A DNA stretch of 48,141 nucleotides from Dictyoglomus sp. (GTDB lineage Bacteria; Dictyoglomota; Dictyoglomia; Dictyoglomales; Dictyoglomaceae): NCBI GenBank assembly GCA_025060475.1, contig JANXBZ010000012.1:1-48141 (forward strand), read 5' to 3'. This document shows, piece by piece, positions 3,433-11,546 of the stretch (position 1 is its first letter; each line of letters starts with the position of its first letter). A program made the position numbers and the translations under genes. Below the pieces are notes generated by a model that worked only from the letters and a program-made list of their open reading frames with translations, was not told the DNA's origin and made no database searches.

Positions 3433-4434
3433 ATGAGACTAGAAGAAATAAAATATTTATATCAAAAAATAAAAAAAGAGTCTATTTCTTCAGAAAAGTC
3501 TGTATTTTATTTTTGTGCTTATGTTCCTTGTGAGCTAATATATGCAAGTGGATTTAAACCTATAAGGTTTTTACCTTCTCCTATATATTTTGCGAGAAGT
3601 GATGAATATTTACCAAAATATTTGTGTCCTTATTTAAGATCTATTACTGAAGAGGTTTTAAGAGAAGATAAAAGGTTTGAAAAGGTAATATTTACTGATA
3701 GTTGCGATTCTTCAAGAAGAATTTTTGAAGTCTGGAGATATCTGAATCTTTCTAAAGAAATTTATTTTCTTCAAATTCCTTTTGGAGAGAAAGAAGAGGA
3801 TGTTAGGTATTTTGCAAAAAATATAAGAGATCTTTTCTATTTTTTAAATACAAAGGGAAATATAGAAAATATTTTTGAAAGTATAAATATCTATAACTTG
3901 GGAAGAAAGAAAATAAGAAACTCCTGGCAATATTCTTTGCTCTTTTATTCTATGGATATTAAAGAATTTTTAAAGCTTTCTTTTGAACCTACAAATGACA
4001 ATAATAAAAAATTTTATCTTTTTTCTACAGTGTATCCTATAGAACTAATAGAGTATATGGAGAATTTAAATTTAAATATCATATATGATGATTCCTGTTT
4101 TGGAATAAGAACAGAAGAAGAAATAAAAATATTAGATGATGATCCTTTTTATTCTCTGGCCTATTATTATCTTAAAAGGGAAGGTTGTGTGAGAAGAAGA
4201 AATTTATTGGATAAAATTTCTATAATTAAAGAAAGAGTGAAAAAAGAAAATATAAAAGGGGTAATTTTTTATTCCTTAAAATATTGTGATCCCCTTCTTT
4301 TTTATATCCCTATATTAAAGGAAGAATTGAGAAAGGAGAATATACCATCGTTAATTTTAGAAGATGATTTTACCATGGGAATAAAAGGACAAATAAGAAC
4401 AAGGTTAGAAGCTTTTTTGGAGATGGTAGGATGA
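3433..4434 (+). CDS. 2-hydroxyacyl-CoA dehydratase-like subunit, first
   Basis: The 333-residue protein resembles the HgdA/HgdB (2-hydroxyglutaryl-CoA dehydratase D-component, benzoyl-CoA reductase) fold. It has an early Cys in the CELIYASGFKP region, CPYLRS, TDSCDSSRR, and a C-terminal EDD...R(T)RLEAFLE ending shared with the next gene. Known family members hold a [4Fe-4S] or double-cubane cluster and accept one low-potential electron from an ATP-driven activase; such an activase is encoded two genes downstream. The gene overlaps the next one by 4 nt (ATGA). A TATAAT at 3420-3425 lies 7 nt before the ATG and no Shine-Dalgarno is visible, so the mRNA may be leaderless. The substrate is unknown; no CoA-transferase or acyl-CoA dehydrogenase gene is adjacent. 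Confidence 0.75.
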   Translation: MRLEEIKYLYQKIKKESISSEKSVFYFCAYVPCELIYASGFKPIRFLPSPIYFARSDEYLPKYLCPYLRSITEEVLREDKRFEKVIFTDSCDSSRRIFEVWRYLNLSKEIYFLQIPFGEKEEDVRYFAKNIRDLFYFLNTKGNIENIFESINIYNLGRKKIRNSWQYSLLFYSMDIKEFLKLSFEPTNDNNKKFYLFSTVYPIELIEYMENLNLNIIYDDSCFGIRTEEEIKILDDDPFYSLAYYYLKREGCVRRRNLLDKISIIKERVKKENIKGVIFYSLKYCDPLLFYIPILKEELRKENIPSLILEDDFTMGIKGQIRTRLEAFLEMVG

Positions 4435-5663
4435 AATTAAATTTAGACAAGAGAAATATAGAGAAAATAAGAAGAATTTTAAGATTTCCCCTTGTCTATC
4501 CATTAGGAGATATATTTATTAAGTTAAAATTTAGAAAGAATAAGGTAACTCTTGTATCATATGAATATGCCTTAGATCTAGTTAAGCATAATTATATGGG
4601 GAAAAATAAAGTAGTAATTACCAATATTTTAATGCCTTCAGAATTATTTTTTGCTCTTGATCTTTTCCCATTATTTCCAGAGGTAGCTTCAGCTTTTTCA
4701 GCTTCTTTAGGATTTGCAGATAAGACTCTTTTTGACAGTGAGGAAATAGTATATTCAAAGGATTTATGTAGTGTTCATAGGAATGTCATAGGATTAACTA
4801 AGAATGGTATTCTTCCAAAACCAGATTTCATCATTTCTACATCCCATCCCTGTCACTCTGCTATTCACTCTTTCTTTTTGATTTCTCAACTTTTTGGAGG
4901 AGAATATTTCCCCATAGATGTTCCTCTAAGGGACAATAATTCTATTGACTACACTGCAAAGAAATTTGAAGAGCTTTTCTTTATATTAGTTAAAAAATTA
5001 AAGATTAAAAAACCTATGTTAGGTTTGGAAAGAGCTATTAAGTATTCCAATATTTCTAGAGATTATCTTATGGAGATAAATGAGTTAAGAAAAGATTATT
5101 TAGTTATTGATGGGAGGAATTTTTTAGATTATGCAGGAATGATCTTTTCTACCTTTGGTTCCCATTGGGGAGTTAAATTTTTTAAGGTTTTAAGGGATGA
5201 AATTAAGGATAGAATTAAAAAGAAGAAGTTTCTTCCTTACAAAAAAAGAGTATGTTGGCTTCATCTTGGTCCTTATTTTAAAACAGATTTTTTTGATTGG
5301 CTAAAAAGTAAGTCTTGTACTATTGTATTTGAGGAAAGTAGTAAAGTCTATTGGGATAAACTTGATCCTAAGGATCCCTTTAAGTCTCTTGCAAAGAAAG
5401 TTATAAATGCCAAAATTTTTTATGATGTTGATGAGAGATTTAATATAGCTCTAGAAGGAGTAAAAGATTATAAGGCACAGGGAGTAATTATTTTTAATCA
5501 ATGGGGTTGTAGACAAGGAGCTGGAAATTCCTATATCTTAAGAAGGAGATTAATGGAGGTGGGTATTCCTGCTATAGTAATAGATGGTGATTTAATAGAT
5601 AAAGGGAATTTTCCATTAGAACAGGTAAAGACAAGAATTGAGGCTTTTCTGGAGGTGTTATAA
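4431..5663 (+). CDS. 2-hydroxyacyl-CoA dehydratase-like subunit, second
   Basis: The 410-residue protein is the partner of the preceding gene and belongs to the same HgdB/FldB-type superfamily. Candidate cluster or active-site cysteines sit in DLCSVHR, TSHPCHSAIH and NQWGCRQGAG, and the C-terminus (IDGDLIDKGN...TRIEAFLEVL) matches the family end seen in the upstream paralogue. The two subunits probably form a heterodimer carrying Fe-S clusters that is reduced by the downstream activase. It overlaps the upstream gene by 4 nt and stops directly before the next ATG, so the three genes are translationally coupled. The reaction could be dehydration of a 2-hydroxyacyl-CoA or another difficult low-potential reduction; the sequence does not decide. 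Confidence 0.75.
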   Translation: MKLNLDKRNIEKIRRILRFPLVYPLGDIFIKLKFRKNKVTLVSYEYALDLVKHNYMGKNKVVITNILMPSELFFALDLFPLFPEVASAFSASLGFADKTLFDSEEIVYSKDLCSVHRNVIGLTKNGILPKPDFIISTSHPCHSAIHSFFLISQLFGGEYFPIDVPLRDNNSIDYTAKKFEELFFILVKKLKIKKPMLGLERAIKYSNISRDYLMEINELRKDYLVIDGRNFLDYAGMIFSTFGSHWGVKFFKVLRDEIKDRIKKKKFLPYKKRVCWLHLGPYFKTDFFDWLKSKSCTIVFEESSKVYWDKLDPKDPFKSLAKKVINAKIFYDVDERFNIALEGVKDYKAQGVIIFNQWGCRQGAGNSYILRRRLMEVGIPAIVIDGDLIDKGNFPLEQVKTRIEAFLEVL

Positions 5664-6455
5664 ATGGATTATTTTTTAGGAGTAGATATTGGCTCTATAA
5701 CCACAAAAGTAGTTCTCCTTTCTTATGATAAGGAGAAAGTAGAGATTTTGGATTATAAAATAACAAAAACTGGGGTTGATGGTAATAATTCTGCTAAGAG
5801 ATTAATCGAAGATATTTTAAGAGAAAAGAATATTTATGATTATGAAGTAAAAGGAATAACTGCGACAGGATATGGAAGAATAAGGGTTGATTTTACAAGT
5901 TTTACAAAAACAGAGATCTCTTGTCATGGAAAGGGGGTAAATTTTGTTTTTCCTTCTGCAAGAACTATTTTAGATATAGGAGGGCAGGATAGCAAGGCTA
6001 TAAGAATAGGAAGTAAAGGAGAAGTATTAGATTTTGCTATGAATGATAAATGTGCTGCAGGAACAGGAAGATTTCTTGAAGTTATGTCAAAGGTATTGGA
6101 GGAAGATTTAGAAAATTTTGGGAAGATTCATATGACAACTAAAGATATGGTGGAAATTACAAATATTTGCACTGTTTTTGCAGAATCAGAGATAATAACT
6201 CTTCTTTCTGAAGGGTACAATAAAAATTCTATTATTAAAGGATTAAATTACTCTATTGGAAAAAGGGTTATTTCCTTGTTAAAAAGAGTTGGGATAGAAA
6301 GGGACGTAGTGATGACAGGAGGAGTTGCAAAGAACGAAGGAGTAAAAAAGGCTATAGAGGATCTATTAGGATTTGAAATTTTTATACCCTTTGAGCCCCA
6401 AATAATAGGAGCTTTAGGAGCGGGACTTTTTGCAATAGAAAACTATAAGTCATGA
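5664..6455 (+). CDS. ATP-dependent activase of the dehydratase-like reductase (HgdC family)
   Basis: The 263-residue ASKHA-fold ATPase has the phosphate-1 motif GVDIGSITTK at the N-terminus and DIGGQDSK at 104-111. The cluster-binding cysteines are C130 (NDKCAAGTG) and C169 (ICTVFAESE), spaced as in the homodimeric 2-hydroxyglutaryl-CoA dehydratase activator, where one [4Fe-4S] bridges the dimer. ATP hydrolysis drives transfer of a very low-potential electron to the dehydratase component, here the two preceding gene products. The start codon directly follows the upstream stop and lies behind GGAGG. Its 3' end overlaps the convergent nucleotidyltransferase gene by 13 nt. Confidence 0.92.
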   Translation: MDYFLGVDIGSITTKVVLLSYDKEKVEILDYKITKTGVDGNNSAKRLIEDILREKNIYDYEVKGITATGYGRIRVDFTSFTKTEISCHGKGVNFVFPSARTILDIGGQDSKAIRIGSKGEVLDFAMNDKCAAGTGRFLEVMSKVLEEDLENFGKIHMTTKDMVEITNICTVFAESEIITLLSEGYNKNSIIKGLNYSIGKRVISLLKRVGIERDVVMTGGVAKNEGVKKAIEDLLGFEIFIPFEPQIIGALGAGLFAIENYKS

Positions 6456-7751: not shown

Positions 7752-8273
7752 TTATTTTTCTAATACTCCTATATACATTAAATTTCTATAATCTTCATTG
7801 TAATCTAAACCATAACCTACTACATAATAATTAGGAATTTCAAATCCTTTATAATCAATGGGAACATCTATAATCCTTCTACCTGGACAATCTAGAAAAG
7901 TGCATACTTTCAAAGAAGAAGGTTCTCTTGCCTTTAATACTTTTAAGAGATAAGCTAAGGAAAGTCCTGTATCGACAATATCTTCTACAATTATTACATC
8001 TTTGTTATATATGTTTGTATCTAAATCCTTTGTAATTCTTACAATTCCGAAGGTTTCTTTGGATGGTCCATAGCTTAAAATAGAAATAAAATCTAAAATA
8101 AAAGGAATAGATAAACTTCTTGTAAGATCTACAGCAAAATATACTGCTCCCTTTAAAATACAGGCTAATATAGGAGTTTTCCCTTGATAATCTTCACTTA
8201 TTTTTTTCCCTAATTCTTTTATTCTTTCAGAAATCTCTTCATAGGTAAAAAGAATTTTTTCTATCTTGGCCAT
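7752..8273 (-). CDS. hpt: Hypoxanthine phosphoribosyltransferase
   Basis: The 173-residue protein is a typical HPRT: the PRPP-binding loop VIIVEDIVDTG lies at 93-103, an ILKGAVYF strand-loop at 39-46, and a C-terminal region ending YRNLMYIGVLEK. It salvages hypoxanthine (and often guanine) with PRPP to make IMP or GMP in the cytoplasm. The start codon overlaps the stop codon of the upstream kinase-nuclease gene by one base (TAATG), so the two are translationally coupled. This pairing is notable because the upstream protein carries a nuclease-like domain. Confidence 0.93.
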   Translation of the reverse strand: MAKIEKILFTYEEISERIKELGKKISEDYQGKTPILACILKGAVYFAVDLTRSLSIPFILDFISILSYGPSKETFGIVRITKDLDTNIYNKDVIIVEDIVDTGLSLAYLLKVLKAREPSSLKVCTFLDCPGRRIIDVPIDYKGFEIPNYYVVGYGLDYNEDYRNLMYIGVLEK

Positions 8274-9199
8274 TATTTCACCTTAGATATTCCGTATTTT
8301 TCTAATATTTTTATATAATCTCGCCCATATAATAGCTTGATATTTATATTGGGATATAATTCTTTAAGCTTCTTAATTTTTTTAATCTTCTCACTCATAA
8401 GTTTTGGCTTTTGGACCGTTAATTCTATATATAAGTCAAATTCAGGAAGATAAAAGTCAGGAGTGAAGGCTTCAATCACCTGTCCCTCTGCGTCCCATTC
8501 TAAAGGGAAGACTCTTGGTTCATATTCCCATGCTATTCTATAAAAAGTTAATAATTTTGCAAATTCTTCTTCACTTTTATTGGCAAACTTTATCTTTGAT
8601 GGAAAGTTAAAGCTTTCTTGTAAAGGTTGATTAATTTTGGTGGGTTTTTCTATAGATTTTATAATAATTTGGTAAATTTCATCCGGGGAATAATAATCTA
8701 AGTTTATAATTAAGTGATAATGATAGGGATCTTTCCAGTCATAGCCAAATAGAGTTTTAAAATATATATCCCTTTCTTTATCCTTTTCTAAGATTAATTT
8801 TATAGAAGTTTCTCTATCTAGGTTATAATTTTTCTGCAGGTTTTTAACTCGAAGATTTAAAGGAGCAATTATATTTATATGAAAGGAATTAGGATAGTCT
8901 TTAAATAAGAATTGTCCTCCTCTCCCTAAAAGAATAACAGGAGATTTTTCTAAATAATTTTTCGTTATCTCTTTAATACCTTCTTTATATTTCTCAATAA
9001 ACTCCTTTTCTCCAGAGTTCTTTTCAATCTTTTTTTCTTCCAGTAATAATTCCTCAGAATTTATTCTGCAATATTTTTGAAGTAGTGGGAACAAATTAAC
9101 TCTATCTAAAAGGATAAAACCAAATTCTTTAGAAAGTTTAGTAAATAAAAAATCTATCTCTGTTCCAAATTCTCTTGCTACTGTTATTAATCTCACCAT
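8273..9199 (-). CDS. Cytidylate-kinase-like domain fused to a PD-(D/E)XK-like domain
   Basis: Residues 1 to about 190 resemble the cytidylate-kinase-like family: the start MVRLITVAREFGTEIDFL parallels the usual ITIsREfGSgG nucleotide-binding loop, and RGGQFLF and an Arg/Lys-rich segment follow. The loop lacks the usual Gly-rich run, so kinase activity is uncertain. Residues 205-308 form a second domain with SEEEFAKLLTFY, WEYEPRVFPLEW, FTPDFYLPEFDLYIELT and a basic helix. D248 and E259 followed by a beta strand and K264/K268 resemble a PD-(D/E)XK nuclease core, though the E-x-K lysine is replaced by threonine (E259-L-T261). The gene lies 5 nt after the Fe-ADH gene and overlaps hpt by one base. 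I infer a role near nucleotide or nucleic-acid metabolism; no specific function is claimed. Confidence 0.6.
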   Translation of the reverse strand: MVRLITVAREFGTEIDFLFTKLSKEFGFILLDRVNLFPLLQKYCRINSEELLLEEKKIEKNSGEKEFIEKYKEGIKEITKNYLEKSPVILLGRGGQFLFKDYPNSFHINIIAPLNLRVKNLQKNYNLDRETSIKLILEKDKERDIYFKTLFGYDWKDPYHYHLIINLDYYSPDEIYQIIIKSIEKPTKINQPLQESFNFPSKIKFANKSEEEFAKLLTFYRIAWEYEPRVFPLEWDAEGQVIEAFTPDFYLPEFDLYIELTVQKPKLMSEKIKKIKKLKELYPNINIKLLYGRDYIKILEKYGISKVK

Positions 9200-9204
9200 A
9201 TCTT

Positions 9205-10311
9205 TTATAATACCTCCTCATATAATGCAAAGATATCTTCCTCCTTTACAGGTCTTATATTATTATTAATATTTATCTGCGAGGTTTTTGCTTTTTCTAC
9301 TAATAATTGAATGTCAATTTTTTCTCTAATCACTTGAGAAAGTCTTAATGGAAGATTCAGTTTTTTAAGAAGTTCCTCAATTTTCTCAGGGGGATATCCT
9401 CCCATTAGAAATTTTAAATAATTCATTTTTTCATGGGGTATAAAGGGGGCATTGTATCTTAAATATGCTGGAAGTAGGATACCGTTAGCTATACCATGAA
9501 TTACATTATAAACACCTCCTAAGGGACGAGACATGGCATGGACCAATGTAGTTTTTGTGTTATTTATAGCCACACCTGCCCAAAAAGAGGCGTAGGATAC
9601 CTTTTCTTTAGAGGATGTAGAATTTTTAAGGATTGCAGGGATGAGGTTATTCCAAAGAGTTTCTATGGCTTCTTTTGCCCATATATCGGTGTATGGAGTA
9701 GAGGAACGAGAAAGAAAAGATTCTATTGCATGGGAGAGGGCATCAATTCCTGTTACCCCAGCAACTAATGAACTCATAGAAAATGTTAATTCAGGGTCTA
9801 CTATAGCAACTTTAGGTATTAAAGCTTTACCAAAGAGAAGAAATTTGTCTTTCATCTCTGGATCTGTTACTACAGCAAATCTTGTGGCTTCACTACCTGT
9901 TCCTGCAGTAGTAGGAACTGCTATTATGGGAAGGGCCTCTTCAATTTCTTTTCCCCTTAATTCAAAGATATTCATATTGGTTGCAAGAAGAGCAGAAACA
10001 ATTTTTGCAGAGTCAATAACACTTCCTCCCCCTACTGCTATAATTCCATCAGGTTTATAATCCTTTGCCCTATTAAAAAGATTAGCTATAGAATGAATGT
10101 CTGGCTCTGGAGTTATTCCACTTATTACCTGAACCTTAAGATCATATTTGTCAAAAAAATCTAGAATTTTATCAAAAAAGCCATTTCTTTTTAAGGAACT
10201 TTCCCCACAGAAGAAGGAAAATTTTTTGCCGAATTTTACTGCCTCTATAGGGAGTTGATCAATGGAACCCGAGCCATATATTATCCTTTGAGGAAGTTCC
10301 AAGATAGGCAT
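9205..10311 (-). CDS. Iron-containing alcohol dehydrogenase family protein
   Basis: The 368-residue protein is a full-length member of the Fe-ADH/glycerol-dehydrogenase superfamily. It has the NAD(P) loop VGGGSVID at 93-100, PTTAGTGSEATRFAV at 133-147, and the metal-binding helix GIDALSHAIESFLSR with D190 and H194, followed by the histidines of LVHAMSRPLGG and VIHGIANG. It would interconvert an alcohol or polyol and a carbonyl compound using NAD(P)H. It is the first gene of a three-gene operon with the kinase-nuclease fusion and hpt. It has AGGAG about 9 nt before ATG and a promoter at 10351-10379. Substrate is not predictable from sequence. Confidence 0.92.
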   Translation of the reverse strand: MPILELPQRIIYGSGSIDQLPIEAVKFGKKFSFFCGESSLKRNGFFDKILDFFDKYDLKVQVISGITPEPDIHSIANLFNRAKDYKPDGIIAVGGGSVIDSAKIVSALLATNMNIFELRGKEIEEALPIIAVPTTAGTGSEATRFAVVTDPEMKDKFLLFGKALIPKVAIVDPELTFSMSSLVAGVTGIDALSHAIESFLSRSSTPYTDIWAKEAIETLWNNLIPAILKNSTSSKEKVSYASFWAGVAINNTKTTLVHAMSRPLGGVYNVIHGIANGILLPAYLRYNAPFIPHEKMNYLKFLMGGYPPEKIEELLKKLNLPLRLSQVIREKIDIQLLVEKAKTSQININNNIRPVKEEDIFALYEEVL

Positions 10312-10409: not shown

Positions 10410-11546
10410 ATGACAGAGAAAATATTTTATATTGATTCTGAAAAATATAGGGATAGAGGAAAAATTCTTGAGATAAGGGAGGGGGATTTATTTGGAATTC
10501 TTCTTAATAAAACTATTTTTTATCCTGAAGGAGGAGGTCAGCCTTCTGATAGAGGAATTATTAGGGGAGAAGATTGGGAACTTTTGGTAACAAAGGTAAT
10601 AGAAGAGGAAGAAAAAATTTTCCACTTTGGGAAATTGATGGGAAAGACTCCTAAAATTGGAGAAGAAGTTTTAATGGAGTTAGATATTTCATTAAGAAAA
10701 GAATATTCTCAGGAACACACTGCTCAGCATCTTTTTTCTGCTATCCTTGAAAGGGATTATGGTTATGAGACTATTGGTTTTCAAATTCTTTCTGATCATA
10801 CAAAGATTGAAATACCGTTAGCTTCTGATATAAATCTTTCTTATATAAAATCCGCAGAAGAAAAGACAAATTACTATATTCGAGAGGGAATACCTGTAAA
10901 GATTTATTGGAAAGACGAAAAAACAAGAATTGTTGAGGTTCTTAACGTAGATATTAATCCTTGTGGTGGAATTCATGTTAAAAATACAAGAGAAATAGGA
11001 CTTTTTAAGGTTTTAAAAGTTTATAGAAAAAATTCGCAGGTTTGGAGAATTGAATTTATCTCAGGAGATAGATTATTAAAAAGATTAGAAAAAAGAGAAG
11101 AAGAGTATGAATATATAAAACAAAAGTTGGGAGATTCTGATGTTGTCAGTTCTTTGGATAAGTTTATTACAAAGTTAAATACATTGGAAAAAGAAAACAA
11201 AAAGTTAAAGGAAAAGATATTAGATTATCAAGCGGAGGAAATATTGAAAGAGGGTATAGAAACTTCTATGGGAAAAATTGTTATGAAAAACTTGGAGCTT
11301 AATATGGGCGATTTGAGAATTCTGGCCTTAAAAATATTAGAAAGTTCTTCTTTATGTTTTCTCTTTAATACTCTTGGAGAATTAGTTCTTGGAAAAAATA
11401 GAGAATTTCCAAAGGAAATATGGGAGAAATTGATTAATTTCTTAGAAAATAGAAACTTTAGAGGTGGAAAGGGAGAAAACTTAATACAAGGAAAAATAGA
11501 TAATATTGAGAATATTAAGGAAGCTTTATTTCAAGAGCTTTTTTAA
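10410..11546 (+). CDS. Alanyl-tRNA editing protein AlaX-L
   Basis: The 378-residue protein is a free-standing alanyl-tRNA synthetase editing factor that hydrolyses Ser- or Gly-mischarged tRNA-Ala. It starts with the beta-barrel motif YPEGGGQPSDRG (38-49), has the zinc site HTAQH (H103, H107) and NPCGGIHV (C185, H189), then a coiled coil (about 230-275) and a C-terminal DHHA1-type domain containing FRGGKGENLIQGK. That layout and length match the long AlaX-L class. It is leaderless by promoter position and overlaps the convergent exported-protein gene by 32 nt. Confidence 0.9.
   Translation: MTEKIFYIDSEKYRDRGKILEIREGDLFGILLNKTIFYPEGGGQPSDRGIIRGEDWELLVTKVIEEEEKIFHFGKLMGKTPKIGEEVLMELDISLRKEYSQEHTAQHLFSAILERDYGYETIGFQILSDHTKIEIPLASDINLSYIKSAEEKTNYYIREGIPVKIYWKDEKTRIVEVLNVDINPCGGIHVKNTREIGLFKVLKVYRKNSQVWRIEFISGDRLLKRLEKREEEYEYIKQKLGDSDVVSSLDKFITKLNTLEKENKKLKEKILDYQAEEILKEGIETSMGKIVMKNLELNMGDLRILALKILESSSLCFLFNTLGELVLGKNREFPKEIWEKLINFLENRNFRGGKGENLIQGKIDNIENIKEALFQELF

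Follow-up and report, generated by a model that had tools for sequence, protein, structure and literature searches.

Analysis of a 48,141-nucleotide stretch of Dictyoglomus sp. DNA (hereafter, the window) revealed a two-domain fusion gene on the minus strand, directly followed by hpt. Both open reading frames and the overlap between them were found as described in an earlier account made from the letters alone (the sequence-only reading). The relevant features are as follows, where CTD denotes the C-terminal domain of the fusion protein.

8273-9199, minus strand: two-domain protein of 308 aa with a cytidylate-kinase-like N-terminus and a PD-(D/E)XK-like C-terminus (open reading frame, Pfam and homologue alignment).
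8696-9187, minus strand: Cytidylate_kin2-like domain, residues 5-168, with a degenerate P-loop (AREFGTEID) and retained GRGGQ and D..R motifs (Pfam PF13189, E 4.8e-25; P-loop comparison).
8276-8590, minus strand: CTD, residues ~204-308, a PD-(D/E)XK-like nuclease domain (PHROG, T7 endonuclease I 3cae and sub-threshold Phage_endo_I matches).
8570-8572, minus strand: E210, motif I acidic residue, aligned with T7 endonuclease I E20 (invariant in 93/93; profile alignment).
8456-8461, minus strand: P247-D248, motif II, aligned with T7 endonuclease I P54-D55 (invariant in 93/93).
8417-8425, minus strand: E259-L260-T261, motif III in the form ExT, aligned with T7 endonuclease I E65-T66-K67 (E and T invariant in 93/93).
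8378-8389, minus strand: K271 and K274 in the helix after motif III, candidates for a migrated catalytic lysine (both invariant in 93/93; precedent in PMC1913061).
8271-8275, minus strand: TAATG, overlap of the fusion TAA stop with the hpt ATG (sequence).
7752-8273, minus strand: hpt (HGPRTase), 173 aa, a member of the CTD-linked HPRT lineage (TIGR01203, tree).
7887-7889, minus strand: C129 of HPRT, at the position of the purine-contacting lysine (human K165; comparison of linked and unlinked HPRTs).
9205-10311, minus strand: iron-containing alcohol dehydrogenase, 5 bp upstream of the fusion gene (Pfam).

The hpt start codon and the stop codon of the fusion gene share one base, and because of this single-base overlap translational coupling of the two genes is likely. 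In the loci that were read, the upstream alcohol dehydrogenase was retained in the window's family and not in other phyla. Nearby, positions 4431-6455 encode a 410-aa protein resembling, by eye, a 2-hydroxyacyl-CoA dehydratase subunit, followed by a BadF/BcrA-type ATPase, and positions 10410-11546 encode a stand-alone AlaRS-like protein with a threonyl/alanyl second additional domain (an AlaX-type editing protein).

The N-terminal assignment of the sequence-only reading was borne out by Pfam, as residues 5-168 scored 89.2 bits against the Cytidylate_kin2 cut-off of 28. The domain belongs to the same family as other Cytidylate_kin2 proteins (PF13189) but differs from them in being fused to the CTD, in its degenerate P-loop in the window lineage and in being dispensable across the CTD family. 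In particular, the P-loop is degenerate in the window (EFGTEID) and in several other families, and an intact GSGG is present in some, for example f191 and f274; GRGGQ, H110, R120, D143, R146 and Y164 (alignment numbering) persist. Judged from these residues, kinase activity of the window protein is doubtful and ligand binding possible. The kinase-like domain was fused in 45 of the 96 CTD loci, and otherwise the CTD occurred alone or with a different N-terminus. Because not all members have the domain, and because the window's copy has a degenerate P-loop, the core of the set does not include a nucleotide kinase; of the proposed combination of kinase, nuclease and HPRT, the link between the latter two held, but the kinase did not prove to be a fixed member. 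In some lineages (L048, L121, L122 and L126) a small N-terminal domain of ~80 aa replaced the kinase-like one; by eye a PC4- or Pur-like ssDNA-binding domain was suspected, and Pfam gave no match. A second cytidylate-kinase-like match, lacking a CTD, was also seen in the window's own genome (G000:C1:4311-4703) and in relatives.

To characterize the CTD, we compared it with profile and structure collections. All 18 CTDs scanned matched PHROG families annotated as Holliday junction resolvase or endonuclease (best E 5.7e-10). A profile built from 18 CTDs retrieved T7 endonuclease I structures from the PDB (3cae, E 3.6e-5) and placed E210, D248 and E259 in register with E20, D55 and E65, the catalytic residues of that enzyme. 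No curated Pfam model covered the CTD. Its matches to Phage_endo_I (PF05367) stayed below threshold, with 16.6-19.5 bits for the window CTD against a curated cut-off of 29.1 and sub-threshold matches for 9 of the 18 members (best E 1.3e-5). Across 93 distinct homologues, F245, P247, D248, F249, Y250, L251, E259 and T261 of the conserved stretch FTPDFYLPEFDLYIELT were invariant, and E210, K271 and K274 likewise showed no variation. Compared with an 86%-identical relative, the CTD had a dN/dS of about 0.02-0.05, with dS near saturation, and by this ratio the domain is under strong purifying selection. As it is also found across many phyla, its conservation is not due to chance.

The motif I acidic residue and the motif II PD of the PD-(D/E)XK superfamily are thus present in all 93 sequences, as the sequence-only reading had suggested for the core, but motif III departs from the classical form. 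It reads ExT in 93/93, the strict ExK is absent and the position of the signature lysine is always Thr. The invariant K271 and K274 lie 12 and 15 residues after E259. This arrangement fits published exceptions (PMC1913061), according to which the motif III lysine of DUF1626 is often Thr and the lysine has probably migrated to the following helix. The same paper describes DUF790 and DUF506, which, like DUF1626, lack the motif III lysine and have conserved basic residues in the next helix; unlike for the CTD, no HPRT linkage was found there for these three families. DUF790 itself was matched weakly and by only one CTD member (E 2.4e-4).

The T7 endonuclease I and phage Holliday junction resolvase group (PF05367; PHROGs 9019, 945 and 15137) resembles the CTD in consisting of small single domains with an alignable helix-strand core and the three acidic equivalents in register. 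In contrast, the phage endonuclease relatives found by tblastn have a classical EVKG at motif III, while the CTD has ExT with invariant lysines further along, and the CTD is bacterial, chromosomal and HPRT-linked. A profile match to the influenza PA endonuclease was not significant (E about 0.065) and covered motif II to the helix. Influenza PA uses a helix lysine, K134, 15 residues after E119, which equals the spacing from E259 to K274 in the CTD; for PA, we found no evidence of RNA cap-snatching by the CTD or of homology beyond the superfamily.

On the strength of these profiles and motifs, the CTD very probably belongs to the PD-(D/E)XK superfamily, of which it is, as a domain, a new variant. 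It is probably a catalytically active nuclease, although catalysis, given a motif III without lysine, rests on the migrated-lysine argument.

Comparison with nuclease folds had been proposed as a check on the C-terminal domain. The sequence profiles gave a nuclease type and no non-nuclease fold was seen, but the structure models were of low confidence. Two models, predicted with the window protein and the 86%-identical relative as the only sequences, had mean pLDDT values of 52.9 and 43.5. In these low-confidence models the order of elements (helix, strands, helix, strand, helix) was compatible with a PD-(D/E)XK core, and a fold search of the PDB with them matched only unrelated proteins. As far as sequence comparison goes, the fold is therefore supported by homology and not by the model, and its details are presumptive.

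We then examined the distribution of the CTD and its genomic neighbours. Besides the window's own family, profile searches located the domain in eight or more further phylum-level sets, so that at least nine phyla contain it. Two of the further sets had it in about one third to one half of their genomes, and in one phylum it was near-universal. A strong CTD was present in 96 genomes or records, of which three had it at contig ends and were left out; in 92 of the 93 that could be assessed, HPRT lay directly downstream on the same strand. The conserved linkage with hpt that a genome survey was expected to reveal is therefore present. Three of these are single-frame fusions of CTD and HPRT, including the Thermomicrobium roseum hpt (WP_012643103), which is annotated only as HPRT. 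Neighbours other than HPRT varied between phyla in the loci read. The sole exception to the linkage was G349, with a stand-alone CTD (L053:5540-5881) and both of its HPRT genes elsewhere; by eye, this CTD adjoins a gene resembling MnmA/TrmU. Because they are adjacent or fused in at least nine phyla, the CTD and HPRT are very probably functionally linked and work together, and there is every likelihood that the CTD is a dedicated functional partner of HPRT.

The window HPRT scored 193.6 bits against the TIGR01203 cut-off of 150 (E 2e-57), retained the PRPP loop EDIVDTG (EDxxDTG) and was the only HGPRT above cut-off in its genome. In a tree of 111 HPRTs the CTD-linked proteins clustered (4 changes; mean after shuffling, 23.6), and a single clade of linked HPRTs was not rejected (p-AU 0.119; 0.569 without T. 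roseum and the f85/f278 group). By this phylogeny, the linked HPRTs are a distinct lineage. The CTD tree broadly agreed with the HPRT tree and both followed lineages, so the two appear to have been inherited as a unit.

Lys165 of human HPRT contacts O6 and N7 of the purine (PMC2228302). The equivalent position was Lys in all 26 unlinked HPRTs, whereas the linked ones (n=85) had 38 Lys, 26 Cys and 21 Arg, so that 47 of 85 carried Cys or Arg instead. The Cys variant was restricted to carriers of the kinase fusion in one clade and Arg was scattered over several families; E97, T102 and G103 of the PRPP loop were kept in 85/85. The window protein has Cys129 and lacks the purine-contacting lysine, and this residue suggests that the only HGPRT of its genome may have an unusual base specificity. 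There is no general loss of normal salvage in this lineage, given that Lys persists in many of its members and that the substitution of the lysine is clustered on the tree.

We read these data as a conserved, undescribed nuclease-HPRT module with a housekeeping rather than a defence role. The CTD would be a PD-(D/E)XK nuclease of the T7 endonuclease I or phage resolvase type, with its catalytic lysine moved to K271 or K274, and would most likely cut a nucleic-acid substrate using a divalent metal. It would be made together with HPRT, from overlapping or adjacent genes and sometimes as one polypeptide, and the two would most likely form one complex. HPRT, with its PRPP site kept and its purine-contacting lysine often changed, would act as an oligomeric scaffold and as a sensor of PRPP or purine nucleotides. 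In some lineages the degenerate kinase-like domain would add one more module, for nucleotide binding or docking. For this explanation as a whole, in which an active nuclease serves a specialised HPRT as its dedicated partner within one complex and HPRT is its scaffold or sensor, we consider the chances to be evenly balanced. That HPRT gates the nuclease or senses for it is, taken separately, a tentative proposal. We favour sensing over salvage on two grounds: the products of nucleases are nucleotides and not bases, and the base-contact residue drifts while the PRPP site stays. On the first of these grounds, recycling of nucleotides from nucleic acid, as first suggested for this locus, is chemically indirect, since HPRT uses free bases; the purine-contacting lysine has also been lost in the window lineage.

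The most far-reaching form of the preferred reading is that purine status is coupled directly to the cleavage or repair of nucleic acids: in a housekeeping system widespread among bacteria, a repurposed HPRT lineage would detect PRPP or purine nucleotides and control a PD-(D/E)XK nuclease. We find this conceivable but doubtful. Literature searches found no pathway of this kind, and a search of open-access papers gave no description of an HPRT-linked nuclease, which does not prove that none exists; the sequence-only reading likewise knew of no described system. For HPRT, a textbook enzyme, the conserved nuclease partner in nine or more phyla, the fusions and the base-contact changes suggest that a connection of purine metabolism with nucleic-acid processing has gone unrecognised. 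As the nuclease-HPRT pair is small and its expression should pose little difficulty, the question can be tested directly.

A different way to join the two proteins is a pair for repair or turnover of damaged purines, in which the nuclease would nick nucleic acid where a purine is deaminated or damaged (hypoxanthine, xanthine) and the freed base would be salvaged or recognised by the HPRT lineage. This would be the only direct chemical tie between a nuclease and a base-salvage enzyme, the CTD resembles endonucleases of the DNA-repair type, and hpt borders mutM in T. roseum. However, a nuclease frees no bases and a glycosylase would be needed, and none was conserved in the neighbourhoods read; moreover, the HPRT lysine that contacts hypoxanthine O6 and N7 is Cys in the window lineage. 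We regard this pair as unlikely.

It is similarly improbable that the CTD is a non-catalytic nuclease fold that binds nucleic acid or protein and so localises HPRT. The invariant Thr in place of the motif III lysine would agree with such a role, and inactivated PD-(D/E)XK domains exist, one being reported for RecC (PMC1185551). Nevertheless, none of the 93 sequences departs from the three acidic residues or from the two lysines that could stand in for the missing one, a constraint that a dead domain would not need, and there is published precedent for a migrated lysine (PMC1913061).

An ordinary operon, with a housekeeping nuclease and HPRT merely co-transcribed and having no functional or physical interplay, is very unlikely. 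Overlapping genes are common in compact genomes, and the window operon also includes the alcohol dehydrogenase; yet the CTD has stayed next to HPRT across nine or more phyla whose other neighbouring genes differ, three in-frame fusions exist and the linked HPRTs form their own lineage.

An anti-phage or toxin-antitoxin system with a nucleotide-depleting or nucleic-acid-degrading response, as the sequence-only reading had also envisaged, is scarcely credible: a nuclease with a nucleotide enzyme is a common defence combination and PADLOC gave weak matches (PD-DEXK defence proteins, best E only 5.7e-4 over 34 residues; ShosT, E 0.027), but none of these was convincing, 41 of 43 genomes of one phylum carry the CTD (28 of 28 near-complete ones), it is inherited with HPRT, the loci read had no defence-island-like neighbourhood and no CTD relatives were found in viral contigs.

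Another conserved gene directly upstream of hpt was seen in genomes without the CTD. In several of these, hpt followed a TilS-like gene and often preceded an FtsH-like gene (by eye; L143, L144, L147, L155 and L157-L159), and a profile confirmed TilS in G472, G016 and G009. TilS is unrelated to the CTD. Replacement of TilS by the CTD upstream of hpt was considered and rejected, as 13 of the 14 tested genomes with a CTD have a TilS gene at another place; it was not found in the remaining one, G367, which is 77% complete. The two arrangements also coexist, since G052, G284 and G147 each contain two HPRT genes, one linked to tilS and one to the CTD.
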